Positions 1,512 through 46,827 of a DNA stretch of 46,827 bases are shown piece by piece (within the stretch, counting starts at the first letter, position 1; each line of letters begins with the position of its first letter). The stretch is from a virus. Location of the stretch: positions 1 to 46,827 of IMG/VR virus record IMGVR_UViG_3300033148_001614. One strand, given 5' to 3'. The notes under the pieces are model-generated. The model ran no database searches, was not told the origin of the DNA, and saw nothing but the letters and a program-made list of their open reading frames with translations. The translations under genes were made by a program, and so were the position numbers.

Positions 1512-2642
1512 TTAAATTAGCCCGAACTTCTTTGCGTCTTTATAGTTCGGTGTCCCCTTAAAGACAAATGATGCTGTAGCTCTTCTTGCTGAGTTTAATA
1601 GCCAGTTACTTTGTAGCTCCTTCTTCTGATGTATAGTCCCGCTTTCAGAAGCCCGCTGGACCTTTCGATGTAAGGCCCACAGAGGAGATGCTGAATGATA
1701 GTAGATCATTCCTGGATGTGCTGTCGTGACGAAAACGCGCTTATGCTTAATTGCGGCCATGAGGCTGGCTATATAGTCAGAAAACTTTACGCCAAGCCCA
1801 ATACCTTGATAATCCGGAAGGCATACGAGTCTATGACCGCGCCAGTATCCCCCATTACGTCCCACTATATGGATCCACGCCGCAAACGCTACGGGTTCTC
1901 CACGTAAGAAGGCTATAAAACACTTCGCTCCCTTGTTGATGTCATGACTTAGATAGTGATACTTACTGAATAGTCGCCAAGCAGAGTAATGTACTCGGTG
2001 TATTTCAAGGGTAAGTTCTGGGTGTCGTTGAACTGACCTCCAGTAAAAACTATTTGAGCGTAAATCATACACCCAGTCAGGCTGTAACCAATCTAAGATA
2101 TCATAGTGGCAAGAGATTGCGATAAATTTCTGCTTTCTTTTTCGAACGGTTTTTGCTATTGCGGCACTTCCTATCTGAGCTACCGTCCTATCTACTACAC
2201 TTGTAAACTCATCTATAACAGCCAGCTCTGGCGATTCAGCTAAAGCTCTAGCCATAGTCACCCGAAACTTCTCACCAGTTGATAATACATGATAAGGACG
2301 TAACCAATTAGGTGGGCTGCTAAAGCCAACAGAAGATAAATACCCAGTAATCTCCCGAATGCTCATTCCTTTTGGAAACTCATCAATAATACTCCGGGTC
2401 TTTGACCATGAATACCCCTGGATAATCTCTTTCTTAAATAGTTTCTTCGCTATAGTAGTTTTCCCACTTCCACTAGGCCCAACAATAAGGCCGATATTCC
2501 ATTCTTTGTCCTCACAGGGTAGATTGACGTCCCACTCCTCTTTACTCCTTTCGCTCGGAGGGACATCAAATAATGCCTCAAGTTGCATAACACGCGGAGT
2601 CCGCGATATCTTTATTGATTTTATAATATGAGCGGACGGCAT
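1512..2642 (-). CDS. ABC-type ATPase fused to GNAT domain (Mom-like DNA modification candidate)
   Basis: A 376-aa two-domain protein. Residues about 15-205 are an ABC ATPase: Walker A GPSGSGKTT (55-63), signature LSTGE (120-124), Walker B LAVIDEF (140-146) and a switch His in SCHYD (179). There is no membrane segment, so this is not a transporter. Residues about 210-376 form a GNAT-like fold with the cofactor loop LPDYQGIGLG (275-284) and a YHYLS motif (228-232). Phage Mu Mom, which modifies adenine in DNA, is a GNAT-fold protein, and the ParB-like gene directly upstream (22-base overlap) supports DNA targeting. The gene is clearly AT-richer than its neighbours (sampled lines 35-43% GC against well over 50%), a sign of recent transfer. 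The activity itself is inference. Confidence 0.75.
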   Translation of the reverse strand: MPSAHIIKSIKISRTPRVMQLEALFDVPPSERSKEEWDVNLPCEDKEWNIGLIVGPSGSGKTTIAKKLFKKEIIQGYSWSKTRSIIDEFPKGMSIREITGYLSSVGFSSPPNWLRPYHVLSTGEKFRVTMARALAESPELAVIDEFTSVVDRTVAQIGSAAIAKTVRKRKQKFIAISCHYDILDWLQPDWVYDLRSNSFYWRSVQRHPELTLEIHRVHYSAWRLFSKYHYLSHDINKGAKCFIAFLRGEPVAFAAWIHIVGRNGGYWRGHRLVCLPDYQGIGLGVKFSDYIASLMAAIKHKRVFVTTAHPGMIYYHSASPLWALHRKVQRASESGTIHQKKELQSNWLLNSARRATASFVFKGTPNYKDAKKFGLI

Positions 2643-3169
2643 TTATACCCCCTTCCTACTAAATCCTCCAGCAACTCTGCTTGGCTTTCCTCCGTTAGCT
2701 CTATGACTAAAATCTGGTACTCTCCTGAGTACGCAGGTTCATTAGGCTTATAGCGCTCCTTTTGCTCCTGTGGCTCTTCAAACCCCATTACGTTAAGGTC
2801 AATATCGAAATCCGATTCCTCAATCTCAAGTTTAATATCCTCTAGCATACCCTCATCCCACTCCGCAAGAAGGGCGATTTGGTTATCCGCCAACGCCAAC
2901 GCCTTCCTCCGAGGATCATCGGTATCCAAGTCCACACGCCGCACCACGACCAACTCCGAGCCATCGGTCTCAACCTCTTTGATCGGGATTCCTAGTTCCT
3001 TGGCCTTCTCATAGACAGCATTGCCGCCGATGATGACACCATTCCGATCAACCACAATCGAGCGTCCCGCCCCTAGCTCCTTGAGCGACTGTTCAACGGC
3101 CTCTAAGTTCCGCTCGGGATGTAGCCTAGCATTCCGGGGATCAAGCTTTATCGTCGCCTTTTTCGCCAC
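2621..3169 (-). CDS. ParB N-terminal-domain protein
   Basis: A 182-aa protein that starts at GTG 3169 behind GGAGGTGACAG. Residues 1-110 follow the ParB/Srx-like fold: the strand [14 protein letters not shown], a helix, then [15 protein letters not shown] (the family's nucleotide-binding region), a helix, and [14 protein letters not shown], typical of the end of the phage domain. The C-terminal third is acidic and ends with an unusual strand-helix segment. Phage ParB-like proteins without a partitioning partner usually accompany DNA methylases or other DNA-modifying enzymes. It overlaps the ABC-GNAT gene and the sugar acetyltransferase gene, so the three are translated together. Confidence 0.8.
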
Positions 3170-3854
3170 CTGTCACCTCCAACCATCTCTGAACACGAGC
3201 CGGATTCCCGTACACCAATGTGTGGGCCGGGACGTCCTTCGTCACCACGGCCCCCGCGCCGATGAACGCTTCCTCACCGATGGTCACACCGCAGACGATC
3301 ATGGCGTTTGCCCCTATCGTCGCGCCCCTCTTCACTAGTGTTTTCAGATAACGAGCCGGCGGCGTAGGTTTACTCGCCCTCGGCCATTTGACGTTGGTGA
3401 AGACACAACTCGGTCCGCAGAACACGTCATCTTCCAGGGTGACCCCTTCGTAGATTGAAACGTTGTTCTGGATCTTCACGCCGTCGCCGATCAGGACGTT
3501 CTCACCAATGAATACGTTCTGCCCCAAGGTACAGTTCTTTCCGATCCGCGCCCCCGGCATAACATGCGTGAAGTGCCAGATCCGCGTTCCTTCTCCGATC
3601 TGCACGTCATCATCAATCACCGCAGTGGCGTGAATGAATACCTTTGGGACGACCGTCGCGGTTTTCAAAACGTTATTAGCCTCCTCCCATTTCCTACGGG
3701 CGACGTCATCATCTGTCTGTCCCATCTCCACTCCACCTTCTTCTACATTCCCACAAGCACACCACCAGCACCAAGGATACTGCGGGGGATAACTCGTCAA
3801 TACATAGTTCTTGTATCGTTTAATCATCCTCTGGCCGCAAATTGGGCAGATCAT
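3141..3854 (-). CDS. Zinc ribbon fused to a hexapeptide sugar N-acetyltransferase (WlbB/WbpD-like)
   Basis: The start is ATG 3854, behind a perfect AAGGAGG; a longer frame to 3950 would run into the upstream gene. Residues 1-60 are a phage-type zinc ribbon (CPICG near 3-7, WCWWCACG near 30-37). Residues about 70-230 form a left-handed beta-helix of hexapeptide repeats ([40 protein letters not shown], then VFCGPSCVF), very close to enzymes that N-acetylate UDP-3-amino-glucuronate during O-antigen synthesis. The joined zinc ribbon is not part of that family. The enzyme could alter host surface sugar (superinfection exclusion), glycosylate phage proteins, or supply a group for the adjacent DNA-modification genes. 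Confidence 0.85.
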
Positions 3855-12049: not shown

Positions 12050-12241
12050 TTATTCCCCCAACAGTTGTTCTAGCCGCGCCCATGCCTCCGGTGACAGCGT
12101 AACCACAGTCGGTGCGGTTTCCTCCTTAACGGGCGTAGATATGTCTGGTTTCGGGCAGTAACTCATCAACCAGACACTCAACGGCCCGGTCGCTATGCCC
12201 ACCACGATGCCCACAATCAATATCGCAAGGCGTGTTTTCAT
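12050..12241 (-). CDS. Small single-span membrane protein, 63 aa
   Basis: ATG 12241 overlaps the loader-like gene stop (ATGA) and has TAAGGGAGG before it; the longer frame upstream is a shadow. Residues 5-27 are hydrophobic (LAILIVGIVVGIATGPLSVW), followed by an outer Cys-Pro and a charged C-terminal domain with a helix (SPEAWARLEQLLGE). It may be anchored by its N-terminus. Unusual inside a replication block; role unknown. Confidence 0.65.
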   Translation of the reverse strand: MKTRLAILIVGIVVGIATGPLSVWLMSYCPKPDISTPVKEETAPTVVTLSPEAWARLEQLLGE

Positions 12242-12714
12242 GATCCCTCCCTTAACGCCTCTTGTCCTGGCTTCCCTAACACCTCTTGCCCGACCATCCG
12301 CCGCCTCTCTTCCTGATAAAAGTGCAGAAAATGCGCACGGGTCGTCCCGTCTCCAACAAGGACCTCCCGTAAAGCGAACAGCCCCACCTGTTCCGCCGCC
12401 CGCCGAACTGGGAGCGGTAGGTCTGCGAGAGTCCGCTCGCCCCGCGCCACTTGTCGAGCCAGTTCCCACGCGTCACCCTCCGACGGATACCGCTCAGCGA
12501 GGATCTCCTCCGCCGCTGTAAAGATCGCTCCGGGAGGAACCGCGAAGGGTTTCGTCGTATGCCGGACAACGCGCATCGCCGCCTCGACTGCTAGTTCATC
12601 ATCTAACGGATCCAGGACCCGCAACCACGTGTCCCAGTTCTCCTCCGGTACCGGCTTCGTGGTGGTGTGCTCAAGGAGCTTAATGATCGTCGCCAACGCC
12701 TTACGGCTCGCCAT
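12238..12714 (-). CDS. Replicative helicase loader/inhibitor-like protein (G39P-like)
   Basis: A 158-aa protein starting at ATG 12714 after GAGAGGAT. It has the pattern of phage helicase loaders related to SPP1 G39P: an N-terminal helical domain (MASRKALATIIKLLEH), NWDTWLRVLDPLDDELAVEA, and a C-terminal disordered charged tail (FYQEERRRMVG). These proteins deliver host-like DnaB helicase to the origin. It lies three genes downstream of the replisome organizer, which supports the assignment. The match is by pattern, not by catalytic residues. Confidence 0.6.
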   Translation of the reverse strand: MASRKALATIIKLLEHTTTKPVPEENWDTWLRVLDPLDDELAVEAAMRVVRHTTKPFAVPPGAIFTAAEEILAERYPSEGDAWELARQVARGERTLADLPLPVRRAAEQVGLFALREVLVGDGTTRAHFLHFYQEERRRMVGQEVLGKPGQEALREGS

Positions 12715-13216
12715 GCTTATCCTCTCGTCGAATAACCTGGACTGGCTTCTCACAGTAGATGCTTAGTTCCGTCGCTACCTCGACCGCCTCCTCTGCTGTG
12801 TGCCCTAGATGTAAGGCAGCCAGGGCGAAGTCCATCCCCGCTCCTATTGCCTCAAATGTTGCGACCTCAGTAATACACCATCCCGAAACGTAGAAAACGT
12901 GGCCCTCATACCCAATCAGGTAAGCGGCTTTTAGGTCCCCTCCCCCAATTCGGTCTTTCTTCCACTTTGAGAACTCCGCTAAAAACTCTAAGAGCGCCGC
13001 CTCAGTCGGTCTCTCCGGTCTACGAGTACTCGCAAACGTGTAGAACATTCCGATCTCACCTACATCACCCGATGCCCCGATATCCAGGCCGTTGATCGAC
13101 GTTAGTTTCGATAGCTTGGAGCGATCGCCCTTCTCTTGCGTTGCCCATCGAACCGATATCGAATCAGCCGCTATTTCATAACCACCCTTGGTGATCCGAC
13201 ACGCTACAACACTCAT
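12701..13216 (-). CDS. HslV/proteasome-beta-like peptidase with Ser1 nucleophile
   Basis: A 171-aa product, ATG 13216 behind GGAGG and overlapping the previous stop (ATGA). If the first Met is removed, the chain starts with Ser1, and Asp17 (IAADS) and Lys33 (SKLSKL) fall exactly at the positions of the catalytic Thr1-Asp17-Lys33 of HslV and proteasome beta subunits. The later glycine turn and helix also match (EAIGAGMDFALAALHLGHTA, EEAVEVATELSIYCEKPVQV). So this is an Ntn-hydrolase-fold peptidase with Ser for Thr. No HslU-type ATPase gene is visible, so the role (host protein turnover, prohead maturation or regulation) is open. Confidence 0.8.
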   Translation of the reverse strand: MSVVACRITKGGYEIAADSISVRWATQEKGDRSKLSKLTSINGLDIGASGDVGEIGMFYTFASTRRPERPTEAALLEFLAEFSKWKKDRIGGGDLKAAYLIGYEGHVFYVSGWCITEVATFEAIGAGMDFALAALHLGHTAEEAVEVATELSIYCEKPVQVIRREDKHGEP

Positions 13217-13503
13217 CCCGGCCTCCGTTCCCACGCCCCGCCATCCCTCACCACCATCCATCCTCGCCCTGGAAGAAGTACTGTCTTTACAGGAATCCCG
13301 AATACTGTTTCAATTGGTCCACTTCGCTCCATTCGTGCATCGATGCTAAAGGGACTATCCTTGAACTGCGCCCTCTCATAAGCCAACCTTGTCCGCATTA
13401 GCTCAACCCGTGTCTGATCATCCACCAGGATAGATGATGGCTTGACTCCGTGTCGGTGCATCCAGCTAATCGAGGCCAATATTTCGTCGAAGATCTTAGT
13501 CAT
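13213..13503 (-). CDS. Hypothetical protein, 96 aa
   Basis: Overlaps the HslV-like gene as ATGA and the SNase gene at the other end. The sequence has a helix (FDEILASISWMHRHG), then ILVDDQTRVELMRTRLAY, a middle segment GPIETVFGIPVKTVLLPG and a Trp-rich end. The GxPV...LPGxGW pattern occurs in small phage proteins related to the capsid E-loop-region type, but I do not rely on it. It could be a partner of the HslV-like peptidase since the two are translationally coupled. Confidence 0.65.
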   Translation of the reverse strand: MTKIFDEILASISWMHRHGVKPSSILVDDQTRVELMRTRLAYERAQFKDSPFSIDARMERSGPIETVFGIPVKTVLLPGRGWMVVRDGGAWERRPG

Positions 13504-13892
13504 CGCTTCCCCCCGAAATACGGGACGGCGTGTCCCGCCTTGACCATCTCCGCGTTGACGCGCGTCAAAAGCCTCGGAAAGATCGGGCCAAACCTGCCAT
13601 CGGTCACGGCATACTCGAATATCTCCACTAAGTACCGCCCGTACTTTCCCTTCTTGTCCTTATGCGTTCGGATCAGAACCTCCTTCCCCTCGATCATATT
13701 CCGTAGAAACTCGGCCGCCTCCATCCCTCGCTTGTACTCCTCGCTGTCCTTCCTCACGCCGTGCGTTTCAGGTGCGTTGATCCCGTAGAGTCTGCACCGT
13801 TCGTGGACGTGAACGGAAAGGCCGAGGTCGATATCCAGCGTGACGGTATCCCCATCTTGGACACTGAGTACTTTGGCCCTATACTCGTACAT
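13500..13892 (-). CDS. Staphylococcal-nuclease-like (SNase) endonuclease
   Basis: A 130-aa protein with the complete SNase/thermonuclease signature: DGDTVTLDIDLG, CRLYGINAPET (first catalytic Arg), the middle helix GMEAAEFLRNMIEGKEVLI, KGKYGRYLVEIF (second catalytic Arg) and the end EMVKAGHAVPYF. No signal peptide is present, so it acts inside the cell. Strong ribosome site AAGGAGGAC. Such nucleases in phages may degrade host DNA or process phage DNA; it overlaps the following gene (ATGA). Confidence 0.9.
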   Translation of the reverse strand: MYEYRAKVLSVQDGDTVTLDIDLGLSVHVHERCRLYGINAPETHGVRKDSEEYKRGMEAAEFLRNMIEGKEVLIRTHKDKKGKYGRYLVEIFEYAVTDGRFGPIFPRLLTRVNAEMVKAGHAVPYFGGKR

Positions 13893-16820: not shown

Positions 16821-16991
16821 CTACTCCTCCTTCGACTTCTCGATGTAGAGTTCAAGTGCGTCACGCACCACTGCCATCGATGATCTGAGGACCTTTGCGA
16901 GTCCTTCGATCCCAGTCAGGCCTTGCAGCATTGCAGCCAGAAGTTGCTCCCTGAAGTCATCGGCTGAACGCGCTTGTTTGGACTCATTCAT
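16821..16991 (-). CDS. Small hypothetical protein, 56 aa
   Basis: ATG 16991 overlaps the SWIM gene end by 8 bases; preceded by GGAGGTG. The product is helical with no membrane span (DDFREQLLAAMLQGLTGIEG, AVVRDALELYIEKSKEE) and could be a small adaptor with a helix-turn-helix feel. Its stop abuts the start of membrane protein B. No function can be given. Confidence 0.6.
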   Translation of the reverse strand: MNESKQARSADDFREQLLAAMLQGLTGIEGLAKVLRSSMAVVRDALELYIEKSKEE

Positions 16992-17259
16992 TATTCACCT
17001 CCAGTAACTCTTTTGCCACGGCGTAATACGTCACGATGTGCTTGCACAACCGACTTGCCGGACATGTACAGACCGCATCCAAGATCGTCTTATCCCCTGG
17101 ATCGTCCTTGTGAACCTTGATGGAGACGGTATAGACTGCATCTGTGGTGAATGATTCGACGCGTGCCATACCCGGCGTTCCTGTTCTGTGAACGCGCTTC
17201 TCAACCCCACGAGGGAGAAGAGGAATCCGCGCCTTTATCTCTTCAACTGTGACTTTCAT
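16984..17259 (-). CDS. SWIM zinc-finger protein
   Basis: A 91-aa protein. The C-terminal region carries the SWIM motif CxCx(n)CxH as CTCPASRLCKHI with hydrophobic flanks (VCTCPA, HIVTYYAVAKELL). The N-terminal 60 residues form a beta-rich segment (AVYTVSIKVHKDD). SWIM domains bind DNA or proteins. It follows the YqaJ exonuclease gene (17-base overlap) in the recombination module and may help it. No strong ribosome site of its own; translation is coupled. Confidence 0.75.
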   Translation of the reverse strand: MKVTVEEIKARIPLLPRGVEKRVHRTGTPGMARVESFTTDAVYTVSIKVHKDDPGDKTILDAVCTCPASRLCKHIVTYYAVAKELLEVNNE

Positions 17260-26062: not shown

Positions 26063-27809
<1,747 letters not shown>

Positions 27810-27817
<8 letters not shown>

Positions 27818-29831
27818 TCCCGCCTCCTTTCAATCGCTGATCGAAGTGTTTGATATTCTGAATGATCCTCTTGTGATCCGGCGTATCGGGAGGCGTCCTC
27901 GCCAACGCCTCCTTCGCGTACTCACGGCCTTCCTGCCAACGCCCCATGTGCCAGCACCACATCGAAGCTCGATCGTAGATGTAAGGGCCATCGAGGCCAG
28001 GGAGGATATAACCCTCCTGTTTCTCGCTCGGTAGTTCCAGGGTCGCCTTGAATAGTCCAAGACCAAGCTCGTGCAGCCCGGCGTCCCAGTACGCCCGCGC
28101 AAGTTCAGCCCACCATCGTTTGTTCGTCGGCTGTGAACGGCAAGCCTCGTGTAGTACCTTGATCCGGTCGGTGAACTGCTTCCTCTTCTCATAAAGCAAG
28201 GCAAGATCGAAGCAAGCGTTCGGCCGATCCCAGGCGACTCGATCACCCAACATTTGTAAGTACTTTTCAAGCGTCGCTATTGCCAAGTTGTCGTAGTGAT
28301 CGGCCTTGTCCTTGAACTCGTCAAGCCCTGCCATGTACCGATATTGCCTACCGAGATAGTAGACAGGGCGCGGATCGTCGGGATTCTCCGCCACGTCTAG
28401 AAGGAGCCGTTCGAGGGCGTACTTCGTCTTCCACCCCCAACGATCCTTCGGTGGACGATGCTCCCAAACGTAAGGGACACGCTCAACTGCCTTTCGCCCC
28501 TCACTCGGAAGAGGAAGTTCATGCGCACGATACTTGTACCAGAACGCTCCCTTCCTCCAACACCGCTGTTGATAGAAGCTCAGATCATGTTGATCCTTGT
28601 TCATGTAGGTAGTTCGGATCATCAACCCGTCGGCGTAGGTCTGGTTGATATGCTCCCGCACCTTCTCCGGTTCGGCTATCCGCTCATCAGCATCGAGGAC
28701 AACCACCCAATCGCCCGTCGCTTCCTGGATCGCCTTGTTACGGGATCCCGCCTTGTCCATGCGGTCACCGCCGAGGATGACCTTGGCACCGAACGCCTTG
28801 GCGATCTTCACCGTGTTGTCTGAGGATCCTGTATCAACGACGACAACCTCATCGGCCAAACCTTTTGTGGAATCGAGAGCTGTTTGCAGGCACTCCTCCT
28901 CATTACGAACGATCATCGTCACGCTGATCTTCAACGGAGTAGGCGGATGGCCTTCCTCTAACGCCCTATCGCAAGCCTCAATGAACGTCTCGGCAGCATG
29001 ATTCGGGGAGTGGAACGTAGCCCATACATTGCGCCCTTTTGCGGTCCATTCCCGTCGGAAGTCCTCGTCATCGCGGAAGCGCGTGATGATCGCCACAAGG
29101 TCATCAGTCGCAGGGCAGAACGGCAACCCGCCGACTGATTCGATGATCCTTTCCTCAATCTCTGGTCTGGAGTAGTTCACCACCGGCAGCCCTAACGCCC
29201 ATGCCTCGACGACGTTCACGCCGTACCCTAATCCCGCGCCGGACTTTGCCTGGTCGATGTAGAGATGACCCCTTGCCTTCCGTTTGAGACAATCCGCGTT
29301 CGATACCCTTTCGATCAGATCCAGCTTAACCCCGGCTTCCTCACACGCCTTGATGATTTCCTCTGTGCCTCGCACATCGCGCTTCGTCGGGGCATGAACA
29401 ACGGTGAATTCGTCGTCCGGCTTCCGCAGGTCGCTCAGATCCTCCATCGCCACAGGCAACCAGACCGGCCCCCAACGGGTTAGATCGTGGGTGGTGCAGG
29501 CTGTAACGTATCCCCTCCGCTTGGCGCGTTTTACGACCGGCTCAGGGCGTTGACGGAACCATGTCCCGTGGTAGATTTGCAGAACGGGTTTCCAATCCCG
29601 GTCAACTGGGATCAGAGTATCGCCGTTATCAAAAGCCACGATGACATCAGCCCAATCGACCAACTCCCCTACTTGTTGGACCGTTGGTTTGTGCAGATCG
29701 TGAGGATACTCGGTGTAGTATGGAGGACTGAAGTCCACTAGGCGGGCAACATGACCCAACCCCTCCACGGCCTTCTTCATTTTGTATCCCCAACCAGCCC
29801 AGTCGCTCCATGCCAGCATCAAGATATTCAC
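27810..29831 (-). CDS. GT4-GT2 bifunctional glycosyltransferase with TPR tail, 673 aa
   Basis: Start GTG behind GGGAGGTAG. Residues 1-300 are a GT-B/GT4-like domain ([38 protein letters not shown] with the donor-binding Glu). Residues about 302-520 are a GT2 domain: [22 protein letters not shown], and the metal site VVLDADERI. Residues about 520-670 have TPR-like helical repeats ([37 protein letters not shown]). TPR-containing transferases often modify protein Ser/Thr. Sitting between the hub and the Thr-rich collagen fibre, with a stop/start overlap with the latter, it likely glycosylates the fibre. Confidence 0.88.
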
Positions 29832-40718: not shown

Positions 40719-41924
40719 CTAGGCGCGGATGCCCTTCAGGATGTAGAACTCTTCCGGCTGCTTGGGTACACCGTCTACGTAGTGCACCGCCCGGATCAGC
40801 ACTTGGTCATAGCTGAACTTCTCATCGCGGCTGACCGCAATCTCGATCGCCCCGGCTTCACCGATTGCGAAGCTCGGCCAGTTACCGAGGATGATGTACG
40901 AGCAGTCAGACGACGTTCCAACAGTGAGGTTAATCGGGATCTGAGTCGTGGTCTTGACCGGCATACCAAACAGGCCGTTCGGTATCCCGCTCGCCATCGA
41001 GTCGTAGAAGATCGGCCTGTTGTTCCCGTCAACCAGACTGCGGATCGTGTTCAGCGAACGGGGGTGCATCGCCCAGCCACTGTAAGAACCGTTCAGAAGC
41101 TCGATCTGGTACATCATGCCGGTCAGGTCGCTCGCTGTCGGAACTGCACCATTAGTGGCGATGTTGGCAGCACCAACACCTGCCTGGTAGTACAGACCTA
41201 AAGGCTGCACTCCACCGGTTCCTCGGATGAACGCTTGATCCTCAGCGAGGGCAAGCTGCTTCATTAGGTCCTGGCGAACAATCGTCTCGATCGACGCATT
41301 TGCGAACTTGAGGAGCCGTTCATGAACCGGGACAAGCCCGATGCACTCCCGGAGGTTCAGCGTCACCTGCTCAAATGCAGGCTGGCTTTCCGTCTTCTGC
41401 GTAGACTGATCTAGCCAGTACGCAGTCGCTCCTGAGGCCATCCGAGGGATGCTCAACTTCTCCGATGACATCGTGTAGATCGTGGCTCCAAGGGAGCGGA
41501 CGACCGTCTGAGCGTAAAGCTCAGGGATCAGCTCTGGGAGAAGCTCATCCTGAACTAGGAATCCCCCGGCGCTGTCATCATCAGTTGTGAGGGCCTTTGT
41601 CTGGATCAACACCTCACGTTCAAACTCAGCCCCTTTCCAGTTCCTCCGCCAACACGCACTCAGCGCCTTGGCGAACGAGAAGGACTGAACCTTGTCCGGC
41701 TGCTTCGGCTGCGGGTGAATCGCCGGGAAACTGGCCTCCCGATCCTTCTCTTGCGCTTGCTCGGGATCAACTGCCTCTACACGGTCAGCCCTCTTCGGCT
41801 CTACTGTGTAGACCTGATCCCCAATCCGTACCTCGACAGATTCCCGCTCCTCCGGCTCCTTATCCAGCATAGCAAGAGCCGCGTCTGCGAGTTTCTGCAC
41901 GTCTTTTTCTGTTAGGTTTTCCAT
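40719..41924 (-). CDS. Major capsid protein, HK97 fold
   Basis: A 401-aa protein. Residues 1-100 form the helical delta/scaffold-like domain (KDVQKLADAALAMLDKEPEE) that the protease would cut near RNWKGAEF/REVLIQTKA. From 115 on, the HK97 pattern is clear: GGFLVQDELLPELIPELYAQ, GATIYTMSSEKLSIPRMASG, ECIGLVPVHERLLKFANASI, AEDQAFIRGTGGVQPLGLYY, PIFYDSMASGIPNGLFGMPV and the end QVLIRAVHYVDGVPKQPEEF. Strong ribosome site AGGAGGTGACAG. Confidence 0.93.
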   Translation of the reverse strand: MENLTEKDVQKLADAALAMLDKEPEERESVEVRIGDQVYTVEPKRADRVEAVDPEQAQEKDREASFPAIHPQPKQPDKVQSFSFAKALSACWRRNWKGAEFEREVLIQTKALTTDDDSAGGFLVQDELLPELIPELYAQTVVRSLGATIYTMSSEKLSIPRMASGATAYWLDQSTQKTESQPAFEQVTLNLRECIGLVPVHERLLKFANASIETIVRQDLMKQLALAEDQAFIRGTGGVQPLGLYYQAGVGAANIATNGAVPTASDLTGMMYQIELLNGSYSGWAMHPRSLNTIRSLVDGNNRPIFYDSMASGIPNGLFGMPVKTTTQIPINLTVGTSSDCSYIILGNWPSFAIGEAGAIEIAVSRDEKFSYDQVLIRAVHYVDGVPKQPEEFYILKGIRA

Positions 41925-43390
41925 CTGTCACCTCCTGACTTTTTGACCACTTTGGCCGCTAACTCGGCCAACTTCGCTACTGCTTCCTTTTTCTCGGCTT
42001 CCATGCTTTCCAGGTAGCCACAGATGAGCCACGTCGCCTCATCCTCAGACAACGTCCCGCTACGCCACGCTGTCAGCACCCGACGGACTAGCTTCTCTCC
42101 ATCAAGGACTACCCCTGAGTCGCTGGCTTTCCATTCCAACCACGTGAAGTCCGCATACAGCTCAGGGAACCGTTGATACAGTTCCTCTGCACTGTAGTCC
42201 TTAAACTCAGGTGGCTCCTCGTCGAACTCCTTGTAGTGTCGAGCGAGGTGGTTGTAGACGCCTTTTCGGTCTGCATCGGGGATATTTACCCCACCCCGTG
42301 CGCCAAGTAACGCCCCCATTGCCGCCGTTACACCACGCCAGACAACTGCATGTCCGCTTACCTTGTGATGTGGGAGCTTGTAGGAGCCTTTGTTATCCGG
42401 CTCCTCCGAATCCACCCAGGTGCACATGACCTTTAGATCGGAGACTTCGGCCGCTGCCACTTCTGCAGGGCCGTCCCAGGCTTCATCTTTCGGGGCCTTC
42501 GGCGTACCGTCCGGGTGCGCTGCACCGTAAGTGATGACACCCTTCTCCACGGTCATCGCCACCGTGGCGACTGCATCCACCTGGGTCGGTTCCGCCGCAG
42601 GGGTGTCTGTGTCCTCCTCTCCCGACGTCTCAGAAGAAACAGACGCTACCGGTTCAGTCGGCTTGGACACCGCTACCTGCTTAGGCCGCAACGCCGCATC
42701 AGCCGCGTTCCAAAGACCCTTGGCAATCGGGGACGGGCCAACTGCAATCGCCTCCGCATACTGCCTGACGTACTCCTTGATCCCGTCAGTGCGCATCGCC
42801 TCCCGGTTCGACGGGATGACCACAGGGGAGTGTTCTAGAAGTTCCCACTTCCTGAATAACCAACCCCACGTCTCAGGTATTTCCTCCCACTCACCAGGAA
42901 TGGGGATGAAACCAACGGACGTGCAGTTGAGGACGTGGGCATCCCACAGGCGTTGATAGACCTGGGCGGGAGTCTCGGGAACGTCTACTAACCACTCCCA
43001 TGCTGCCCAAACGCGGTCTTTGCTCACCTTCAGCTTTCGATCGAACCCCACAGGGAAAGTGTGAGCATGAGACGGCAACACCACAGGATTCTGTCGAAAG
43101 TTGTCCGTAATGATGACCCCAGTAGATTCCAGAATATCACCGTCCCGATCGACTTCGGCCGACGAAATAGTCGATGAAGCTACAGGCCGTGCCGGGTTCA
43201 GGAAGTCACCCTTGAAGGAATGAACGGCCTTGACAGCCGTATCCGGAACATCATCGCGGGGATATATCCCAAACTTGAATACCCCGGCAAGCTGCATCGT
43301 CTCGACCAACCGCTTGATTTCATCGCGTGGGACGACGACATGTTCGCTTTCGCCCTTAACCAGGACCTCTGTTACAAGCATCCGTTCCAT
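41912..43390 (-). CDS. Prohead protease (HK97 U35) with C-terminal extension, 492 aa
   Basis: ATG 43390 overlaps the micro zinc-ribbon gene stop as TGATG. Residues about 60-235 are the serine protease: VASSTISSAEVDRDGDIL, the catalytic His in LPSHAHTFPVG and the catalytic Ser in LNCTSVGFIPI. A Glu/Thr/Ala-rich linker follows (about 260-315). Residues about 320-430 are an extra domain ending KLPHHKVSGHAVVWRGVTAA, IPDADRKGVYNHLARHYKEF, found in other phage structural proteins. The last 60 residues are helical. Fused domains next to the capsid may act as a scaffold. Confidence 0.88.
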   Translation of the reverse strand: MERMLVTEVLVKGESEHVVVPRDEIKRLVETMQLAGVFKFGIYPRDDVPDTAVKAVHSFKGDFLNPARPVASSTISSAEVDRDGDILESTGVIITDNFRQNPVVLPSHAHTFPVGFDRKLKVSKDRVWAAWEWLVDVPETPAQVYQRLWDAHVLNCTSVGFIPIPGEWEEIPETWGWLFRKWELLEHSPVVIPSNREAMRTDGIKEYVRQYAEAIAVGPSPIAKGLWNAADAALRPKQVAVSKPTEPVASVSSETSGEEDTDTPAAEPTQVDAVATVAMTVEKGVITYGAAHPDGTPKAPKDEAWDGPAEVAAAEVSDLKVMCTWVDSEEPDNKGSYKLPHHKVSGHAVVWRGVTAAMGALLGARGGVNIPDADRKGVYNHLARHYKEFDEEPPEFKDYSAEELYQRFPELYADFTWLEWKASDSGVVLDGEKLVRRVLTAWRSGTLSEDEATWLICGYLESMEAEKKEAVAKLAELAAKVVKKSGGDRWKT

Positions 43391-43524
43391 CACTTTCGCC
43401 TCCCCTTGTGCCTCTTGAGGCGGATCTTGCGCGAGGCTACCATGTCCGCACCACAGCGCGGGCACTTTCCCGACGGCGGAGACGCCTTCACGATCAACCC
43501 GCACTCAGGGCACACCATCTTCAT
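43390..43524 (-). CDS. Micro zinc-ribbon protein, 44 aa
   Basis: ATG 43524 overlaps the upstream micro-gene stop (ATGA) and the TGA overlaps the protease start. Two CxxC pairs (VCPECGLIV, KCPRCGAD) make a zinc ribbon, followed by a basic tail (RKIRLKRHKGRRK). Too short for automatic gene callers, yet coupled on both sides to certain genes. Possibly binds RNA, DNA or the prohead. Confidence 0.7.
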   Translation of the reverse strand: MKMVCPECGLIVKASPPSGKCPRCGADMVASRKIRLKRHKGRRK

Positions 43525-44564: not shown

Positions 44565-46757
44565 TCACACCTCCTGTCCTGTAACCGCTGCCAAGTGATT
44601 CAGATACCGCTCCTTCTCGCGCTGGAAGAAGTCCGCCAACGCCCCTGTATATGCCTTCCCCGCTCCGTCGGTCAGTAGCTTGTTCTCCCAGGCAAGGAAG
44701 TCCTTCCTCGTTATGTCTGGCGTCTTGCCCGACTCGTTCATCGGAACTAGGTCGCAATGACAGTTGATCGTCTCCTCACCCGGAGCCGCAATATCGCCGG
44801 GGTACATCAACGAATTCCCCGTTGACATCACGAACGGCTCATCCATCGGGATACCGTTTGCGTAGGTGCCCATCGCTTCCAAGTGCCATTGCCGGGGATT
44901 TTCTTGAGATGGGAAGGCAAGCCACCGCTTCTTGGGAACTTGAACCGCTGAATAGAACTGGAACTGTCCGGTCTCCAATGCGTTGTGCAGTTCTGTCCCC
45001 GCGATCGTCTTGGCCCGCGTCTTGCTCATCCCATCAAACGCTTCCCGGAGTCGCTTGGCAATTTCACGGACACCTTCTCCTTCCCTCATTGCGTCTTGAA
45101 TGAGTCTGCGGATCCGTGTACGGGTTTCCTCGTTGATCGACGTAACGATGCCTTTCCCGCCGATCTTTTCTCCGAGCCGCTCGTTCACGTATTGGTTGAT
45201 ATGCTGCTGCCAGTTGTAGCGCCCCCTCCAGTCATCCGGTACGTCGATCCCCAACTCAAGGGCTAGGCTATGTCCCCTATCCGCCCCCTCGTCCATCAAG
45301 ATCGGTAAATGCTCTGCATGGGTCTTACGTTGATCGACGAGCGATTCGTAAGGGTCGGGAAGCAACGTGTCGGGATCGCTCGCTAGTTTGGTAATGTCGA
45401 GGATCTTACCCCTCACCCTGCGGACCCCTTTGGCCGGTGCGACGGTCCCCGCGCTTTGAAGATTCATCGGAACTAGGACGTCGTTGACAAGATCGCCCTC
45501 CGCCTCAGGTAGGTTCCAGTACTTCGTTCGCAGTTCCTGGAGGGTCCACCCCTGTTGCTGGAGGAACCGTCCGATCCGGGCCTTGGTCTGTTGGTCCTCC
45601 TGGAGTGCCGGAATCCCTGTAACATCGAACGCAACCCTGATCTTCTCACCACCAAGAGGTAAACCAAAGTTCATCTTGCGCTCGATCATTTCGCAACGAG
45701 GAAGGACCGTGTTCTCGTAGAAGAGTTGCTCTTGGACCTGAGCAACCGCGCGGTTCAAGCCTTGTTCCTTCGATACACCAGCAACGATCGGCGGGACACC
45801 CAGTACGGCCAGAACCTCCTCACGGGTAAGCAGACGCAACTCGCGGAACCCCATCTCTGTATGGCTCAGACCGACCTTCTTGTACTCGGCACCCTCACCA
45901 AGGACTCCGATACGGTGCGACCGTGCAACGCCTTTGTGCTGCTCTTCCCACATCGCCCGGAGAGTCCGCGCATCCGCCATGCTGATCTTGCGATCGACCT
46001 TGAGATACCCTGGAACCTCTCCCGAGTTGTCGAAGAACGCTCTGTTCCAATCCATCGCCCGCGCGTCGGCGATCAATTGCGTCCGCAGAACCTTCGTCGG
46101 GCTGAGGCCGTAGTAGGGATTTTCAGGGTTGAATTCTACAAAGTGGACAATCTCATCCTTGTCGAACACGACGGCCCGCGTCCCTACCCGATAAAGCCAA
46201 CCGCCGATCAGCGTCTTCTCATCGGGAATGGCATACATGTACCGGGGATCGATCTTCGGCCAAAGGCCGTCAACCTTCGTCTTGGCCTTGTCTGCGAACC
46301 GCTTCTCCCAGTATGCGTCTCCGGCTAGATCGATGTAGACCGACGTAACGTAGATCAGGTCGTATCGGGTCAACTGGGCTTCATCGAGGGGATGTTCAAT
46401 CAGGTCGAGGATTTCGTGATCAACAACCGTCGCCCGTTCGAACTTGAGCCACGCCTCGAACGCCTCCGCCCAGTTGTTTATCTGGGTCGTTTCTTTGAAC
46501 TCCCGAACGGAGGAAAACTTCGGGGTCCGCTTGAATTCGATCGCCACGATCGGCACCCTAGCGACCGCTCGACCGATAGCGCGGATCCCGGCATACGTCC
46601 AGCTGTGAACCCTGTACGCGGCTAGCAGGTCGCTCGTGTAACTCGGACGAGAGATGTAATCGCCCTTATCCTCCGCCGCCATGATGATCGACGTGGTTTC
46701 TCCCACGCCGCGTGTCCGCTGACCTAACCCACGTTCTAGTAACGTCGATAGCGACAT
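44565..46757 (-). CDS. Portal protein fused to MuF-like domain, 730 aa
   Basis: Begins at ATG 46757 (44 in the left copy). Residues about 30-430 have the HK97/SPP1 portal pattern (AYRVHSWTYAGIRAIGRAVA, DEIVHFVEFNPENPYYGLSP, VLAVLGVPPIVAGVSKEQGL, FYENTVLPRCEMIERKMNFG). Residues about 530-690 are a MuF-like (SPP1 gp7) head-morphogenesis domain (RIRRLIQDAMREGEGVREIA, AGTELHNALETGQFQFYSAV, RWLAFPSQENPRQWHLEAMG, a final CHCDL). Most phages encode these as two genes; here they are one. Followed by the secreted repeat protein at 44563. Confidence 0.9.
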   Translation of the reverse strand: MSLSTLLERGLGQRTRGVGETTSIIMAAEDKGDYISRPSYTSDLLAAYRVHSWTYAGIRAIGRAVARVPIVAIEFKRTPKFSSVREFKETTQINNWAEAFEAWLKFERATVVDHEILDLIEHPLDEAQLTRYDLIYVTSVYIDLAGDAYWEKRFADKAKTKVDGLWPKIDPRYMYAIPDEKTLIGGWLYRVGTRAVVFDKDEIVHFVEFNPENPYYGLSPTKVLRTQLIADARAMDWNRAFFDNSGEVPGYLKVDRKISMADARTLRAMWEEQHKGVARSHRIGVLGEGAEYKKVGLSHTEMGFRELRLLTREEVLAVLGVPPIVAGVSKEQGLNRAVAQVQEQLFYENTVLPRCEMIERKMNFGLPLGGEKIRVAFDVTGIPALQEDQQTKARIGRFLQQQGWTLQELRTKYWNLPEAEGDLVNDVLVPMNLQSAGTVAPAKGVRRVRGKILDITKLASDPDTLLPDPYESLVDQRKTHAEHLPILMDEGADRGHSLALELGIDVPDDWRGRYNWQQHINQYVNERLGEKIGGKGIVTSINEETRTRIRRLIQDAMREGEGVREIAKRLREAFDGMSKTRAKTIAGTELHNALETGQFQFYSAVQVPKKRWLAFPSQENPRQWHLEAMGTYANGIPMDEPFVMSTGNSLMYPGDIAAPGEETINCHCDLVPMNESGKTPDITRKDFLAWENKLLTDGAGKAYTGALADFFQREKERYLNHLAAVTGQEV

Positions 46758-46827
46758 ATCGCCTCCTCTAAAAGAAACACCCCCACGCCGTTTGGCGCGG
46801 GGGCGTCCTTCTCGACGCTATTCCCGT
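46714..46827. repeat. Terminal direct repeat, right copy
   Basis: Exact copy of 1-114. It contains the first codons of the portal gene (which are complete here, on the minus strand up to 46757) and the start of the terminator hairpin. It supports circularity and gives the position of the contig cut. Confidence 0.95.

Follow-up and report, generated by a model that had tools for sequence, protein, structure and literature searches.

A divergent proteasome/HslV-like protein with a predicted N-terminal serine encoded by a tailed phage

The virus record analyzed here (46,827 bases, referred to as the window in the following) encodes on its minus strand, at positions 13216-12701, a protein of the proteasome/HslV type in which serine takes the place of the N-terminal threonine once the initiator Met is removed. 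Judged by sequence, structural model and analogy, it is probably a subunit of an Ntn peptidase which forms rings and operates either with a host unfoldase or independently of ATP. The protein does not represent a new kind of system; ordinary in kind, it nevertheless diverges from other members and its active site is unusual. No description of the function of any phage proteasome homologue was found in the literature searched. A divergent member with Ser1 offers a test case from nature for two questions: why threonine is used by proteasome-like enzymes, and how much of such an active site can be stripped away.

The gene and its surroundings in the phage genome

Direct reading of the sequence established that the ORF predicted at 12701-13216 is real and is located on the minus strand. 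Its product comprises 171 amino acids including Met and starts with MSVVACRITKGGYEIAADSISVRWATQEKGDRSKLSKLTSINGLDIGASGDVGEIG; the protein begins MSVVACRITKGGYEIAADSIS, and Ser1 and Asp17 occupy the positions given in the original prediction after removal of Met. The start codon ATG (13216-13214) is preceded by a GGAGG ribosome-binding site five bases upstream, and positions 13214-13226 (minus strand) cover the two elements and the ATGA in which the start overlaps the upstream stop codon. Phage homologues likewise start with Met followed directly by the nucleophile and carry no propeptide, which agrees with a start at 13216. A longer, mechanically derived ORF begins at 13261, but nothing in the homologues corresponds to the 15 residues that it adds.

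The ATGA overlap connects the peptidase gene to a gene for a 96-aa protein (13213-13503, minus strand), as originally described. On the other side the next downstream gene (12238-12714, minus strand), for which Pfam and PHROG scans gave no family match, overlaps the end of the peptidase gene; it probably starts with the ATG at 12714, though it is listed from a GTG at 12753. Both the ATGA overlap and this start inside the end of the peptidase gene place the latter in a tightly packed block. The gene belongs to a stretch encoded on the minus strand between replication/recombination genes and the terminase. Two genes upstream of the peptidase a staphylococcal-nuclease-like endonuclease is encoded (13500-13892, minus strand; PF00565, 1.5e-11; PHROG 452, 9.7e-28). 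Between the genes for a YqaJ nuclease and an AAA_23 ATPase a small protein (16984-17259, minus strand) with a SWIM-like CxC...CxH pattern (VCTCPASRLCKHIV) was observed, which found no support in Pfam. A scan with defence-system models returned no matches. The 96-aa protein had been considered a possible adaptor of the peptidase. Searches of Pfam, PHROGs, phages and viral contigs detected no homologue of it, nor was a conserved small partner found next to the peptidase relatives, and this idea was dropped.

The record carries an exact direct terminal repeat of 114 bp (1-114, identical to 46714-46827 by direct comparison), and one relative of the virus, L020, is continuous across the junction. 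The repeat indicates that the 46.8-kb record is probably a complete genome, and genes for terminase, portal, head and tape-measure proteins identify it as that of a tailed phage. None of the relatives of the whole virus (L018-L020) extends to the peptidase gene. Among the tail genes a collagen-repeat protein is followed by a glycosyltransferase-2/TPR protein (26063-27817 and 27810-29831, both minus strand). A 530-aa ORF (41912-43504, minus strand) matches both the major head protein and the head maturation protease families and possibly encodes a fused protease-capsid protein.

The absence of a partner ATPase of the HslU/Clp type, noted in the original prediction, was confirmed by a six-frame search of the genome with PF07724, which was positive in all of the 14 control genomes. 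In the product of the gene at 1512-2642 (minus strand) an ABC-ATPase is combined with a GNAT acetyltransferase domain (PHROG 11143, 1.4e-108); this fusion is not of the HslU/Clp type. Outside of HslV a missing partner ATPase is the usual situation.

Family membership and fold

The peptidase matched the family PHROG 1040, annotated as "peptidase HslV family", with E = 3.6e-21 and 77 bits, which is more than a chance match. The search against PF00227 proposed along with the original prediction was negative: a Pfam scan of the single sequence, PF00227 included, gave no match at E up to 1, the divergence of the protein being too great for a scan of this kind. The NCBIfam model for HslV also failed (E 0.07, 12.8 bits compared to a cut-off of 137). 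A seven-member profile including the query matched the PDB entries of HslV (4hnz, 1.3e-10), of BPH, the betaproteobacterial proteasome homologue (5ovu, 1.5e-9), and of 20S beta5.

Starting from HslV, relatives were gathered stepwise, first in phages of Klebsiella, Aeromonas and Tenacibaculum, then in hundreds of phage records and at 80 viral-contig loci. When the query sequence alone was compared with phages, viral contigs and species genomes, no matches were obtained. Scanning viral contigs with a degenerate DNA motif revealed one true relative (L030), and the three matches of such a scan in genomes were discarded as chance hits. None of the relatives found is closer to the query than about 30% identity. 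Hundreds of phage records contain members of the proteasome-like family, T5-like and phi92-like phages of laboratory Escherichia coli among them, and two phage classes, PPH (proteasome homologue of phages and their hosts) and AAH, have been described (Fuchs, Alva, Lupas 2021; PMC8665760). The query was scored best by a PPH-like phage protein profile (53.7 bits vs. 27.5 for an AAH-like profile), and in the tree it grouped with PPH/HslV rows (99/99), with phage DSL-LC04 as sister (98/86) and on a long branch; profile and tree rows represent PPH by likeness and are not the authors' own PPH set, and the name AAH is likewise given here by resemblance. Strict membership in PPH was rejected because of helix H2, and the most fitting description of the query is that of a divergent proteasome-like phage protein of group I.

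Several relatives are encoded by adjacent pairs of HslV-like genes. Aeromonas phage 2L372D (L122:1501-2052 and 2070-2954) combines one PPH-like with one AAH-like branch, and two viral contigs (L090:1902-2504 and 2501-3067; L108:2501-3082 and 3089-3658) each carry two different AAH-like branches. Such paired proteins could form mixed rings.

An AlphaFold2 model based on 54 sequences reached a pLDDT of 85.6 and a pTM of 0.83; the single-sequence model (pLDDT 40.5) was left out of the analysis. The order of elements, S1, S2, S3, S4, H1, H2, four strands, H3, H4 and a strand, is that of HslV and BPH. Foldseek returned BPH as the top match (TM 0.83, E 1.7e-9), followed by HslV and then 20S beta subunits, these matches having E values of 1e-9 to 1e-7 and a probability of 1.00; 42 viral models were found at E <= 0.001. 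A helix at residues 72-90 lies where H2 is expected, S3 and S4 are joined by a two-residue turn (42-43), helices H1 to H4 bear no blocking insertions and the pore loop is short. Structure prediction therefore gave the proteasome-type, four-layer alpha-beta-beta-alpha Ntn fold on which the original prediction depended, and together with the PHROG match the assignment to the proteasome-like family and fold, and with it the claim of a phage-encoded proteasome/HslV-like protein, is strong.

The active site

Catalytic positions were compared by aligning the query to 68 homologues, of which 67 are from phages or other viral sequences and one is E. coli HslV. In the nucleophile column Thr is present in 65 and Ser in three of the 68, with the share of Thr being inflated, since the search patterns for viral contigs were drawn from Thr1 sequences. 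Met-Ser occurs at the same place in three cultured phages, Larrie and pT24 of Tenacibaculum and BL47 of Caulobacter, and Ser1 is also found in BPHs outside Betaproteobacteria, in CodW and in one Anbu (PMC5777263). In yeast beta5 the exchange T1S lowers the activity toward Suc-LLVY-AMC by only 40-45%, and the mutant still reacts with carfilzomib and bortezomib (PMC4792962); by analogy, a serine nucleophile is workable. Ser1 is hence uncommon, yet with precedent. The peptidase had been called unusual, which holds for its minority nucleophile (3/68), but it is less so than claimed, given the phage classes already described in hundreds of records and the precedents for Ser1.

The original prediction had placed Ser1, Asp17 and Lys33 exactly on the catalytic triad of HslV and had made the proposal dependent on their conservation. 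Asp17 is invariant (68/68) and the nucleophile is exclusively Thr or Ser, so that these two positions stand. A lysine is present at position 33 as well, but its column contains Lys in only 17 of the 68 homologues, whereas the column with Lys in all 68 aligns with Lys36 of the query. The PPH-like profile alignment and A5 concur on Lys36. In the model Lys36 is situated at the edge of S3, just before strand 38-41 (Met-inclusive numbering), and residue 33 ends the least certain loop. From alignment and model, the catalytic lysine is probably Lys36, and Lys33 was rejected for this role.

The oxyanion-hole glycine is retained as Gly46 (mature numbering, as in the following), and the GAG turn noted earlier (Gly124-Ala125-Gly126) and the helix after it were recovered in sequence and model. 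The 20S proteasome possesses a second network, the pair Ser129 and Asp166, which handles the N-terminal amine, and catalysis is impaired by D166N and abolished by D166A (PMC4792962). The equivalents of this pair are missing from the query: Ser129 is replaced by Ala125 and Asp166 by Ser151. In addition, Cys154 takes the place of Ser169. Among the 68 homologues the Ser129 column contains Cys in 37, Ser in 26 and Ala in two cases and the Asp166 column Ser in 32, Asp in 17 and Cys in six, many phage homologues combining Cys in the former with Ser in the latter; E. coli HslV itself carries Cys at the Asp166 column. To judge from these sequences, the columns of the second network are loose in the phage family.

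Predicted function and relation to known systems

For the ring-forming Ntn peptidase the following sequence of events is proposed. Host methionine aminopeptidase would take off Met and expose Ser1, as suggested by the size of the residue and by the Met removal demonstrated for BPH by mass spectrometry (PMC5777263). By homology to the active sites of 20S and BPH, Lys36, oriented by Asp17, would deprotonate the hydroxyl of Ser1 for the attack on the peptide bond, and the backbone of Gly46 would stabilize the transition state. The subunits probably assemble as a double ring of the HslV/BPH type, to which the short pore loop and the unobstructed helices of the model point. Since the phage encodes no HslU/Clp-type ATPase, the particle may admit peptides or unfolded proteins in an ATP-independent manner, or it may rely on a host unfoldase. 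The location of the gene, with replication/recombination genes on one side and the terminase on the other, suggests that the protein acts within the infected cell and not in the maturation of capsids. A more far-reaching version, a self-compartmentalizing serine-type phage proteasome relative that dispenses with both the Ser129/Asp166 equivalents and an ATPase of its own, protonates the amine by a route unlike that of 20S and serves to take over the host or to turn over proteins in the course of infection, is put forward tentatively and appears doubtful at present.

Two observations count against an active peptidase: the replacement of the Ser129 and Asp166 equivalents, and the finding that BPH was inert in vitro although its Thr1 active site is complete (PMC5777263). 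The fold might accordingly have been kept with catalysis dead or nearly so, in which case the protein would be a decoy or inhibitor subunit binding either a substrate or a protease of the host (HslV/HslU or Clp), and Ser1 a relic. The long branch and the exchange of Thr1 for Ser fit such a role, as does the title of the structure paper on CodW, likewise a Ser1 protein, which in the reference list of PMC5777263 contains the words "an impaired catalytic apparatus". We regard this as unlikely: a decoy would have no need for Ser1, Asp17, the lysine and the oxyanion Gly, all of which are retained, and co-assembly with host subunits is improbable at about 25% identity to HslV. Still less probable is a dedicated processing enzyme or ligase with a single substrate, acting as monomer or small oligomer. 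Connectase, a monomeric ligase, does belong to the family, and for some members it is predicted that no multi-layered rings are formed (PMC8665760), but the insertion between S3 and S4 that is the signature of connectase is missing in the model, where both helix pairs are present. A head or scaffold maturation protease is very improbable. AAH-like relatives (viral loci L042-L121) often stand next to genes for the large terminase subunit, the portal, a head protease or the major head protein, which speaks for such a role. The query gene, however, belongs to the block on the replication side, at a distance of about 5 kb from the terminase and a long way from the portal, the phage has a head-maturation-protease/major-head-protein match of its own at 41912-43504, and a separate head protease gene accompanies some of the relatives.

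The ring-forming peptidase preferred here can be placed among the known systems as follows. With HslV/ClpQ it shares the fold (TM about 0.7), Asp17, the Gly and the IYx(T/C) end of H4, but it falls below the NCBIfam cut-off, the phage lacks HslU and three residues are inserted before the catalytic Lys. CodW of Bacillus subtilis resembles it in the use of an N-terminal Ser. The AAH-like phage family (T5-like Epseptimavirus, a Moorella phage and many viral contigs; PHROG 1040 in part) has H1 and H2, Asp17 and the invariant Lys in common with the query and differs by Thr1 in all 80 fetched loci, which were found with patterns from Thr1 sequences, by a mostly GCG turn and by a separate branch in the tree (99/99). 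BPH is the best structural match; Ser1 in its representatives outside Betaproteobacteria, a catalytic Lys past position 33 (Lys-37; PMC5777263) and the apparently missing partner ATPase are further common traits. The identity to BPH is only 16-21%, however, and BPH is encoded on bacterial chromosomes, possesses a long and acidic pore loop instead of a short one and retains Ser-139, which bonds residue 1. PPH is likewise phage-encoded, with Met directly before the nucleophile, no propeptide and a triad with Asp and Lys, but comprises about 140 aa without helix H2 and usually has Thr1, while in the query Ala replaces the Ser of GSG and the DxxTGG motif is missing. The protein is therefore a divergent new member of the described phage proteins and not a new kind of machine.
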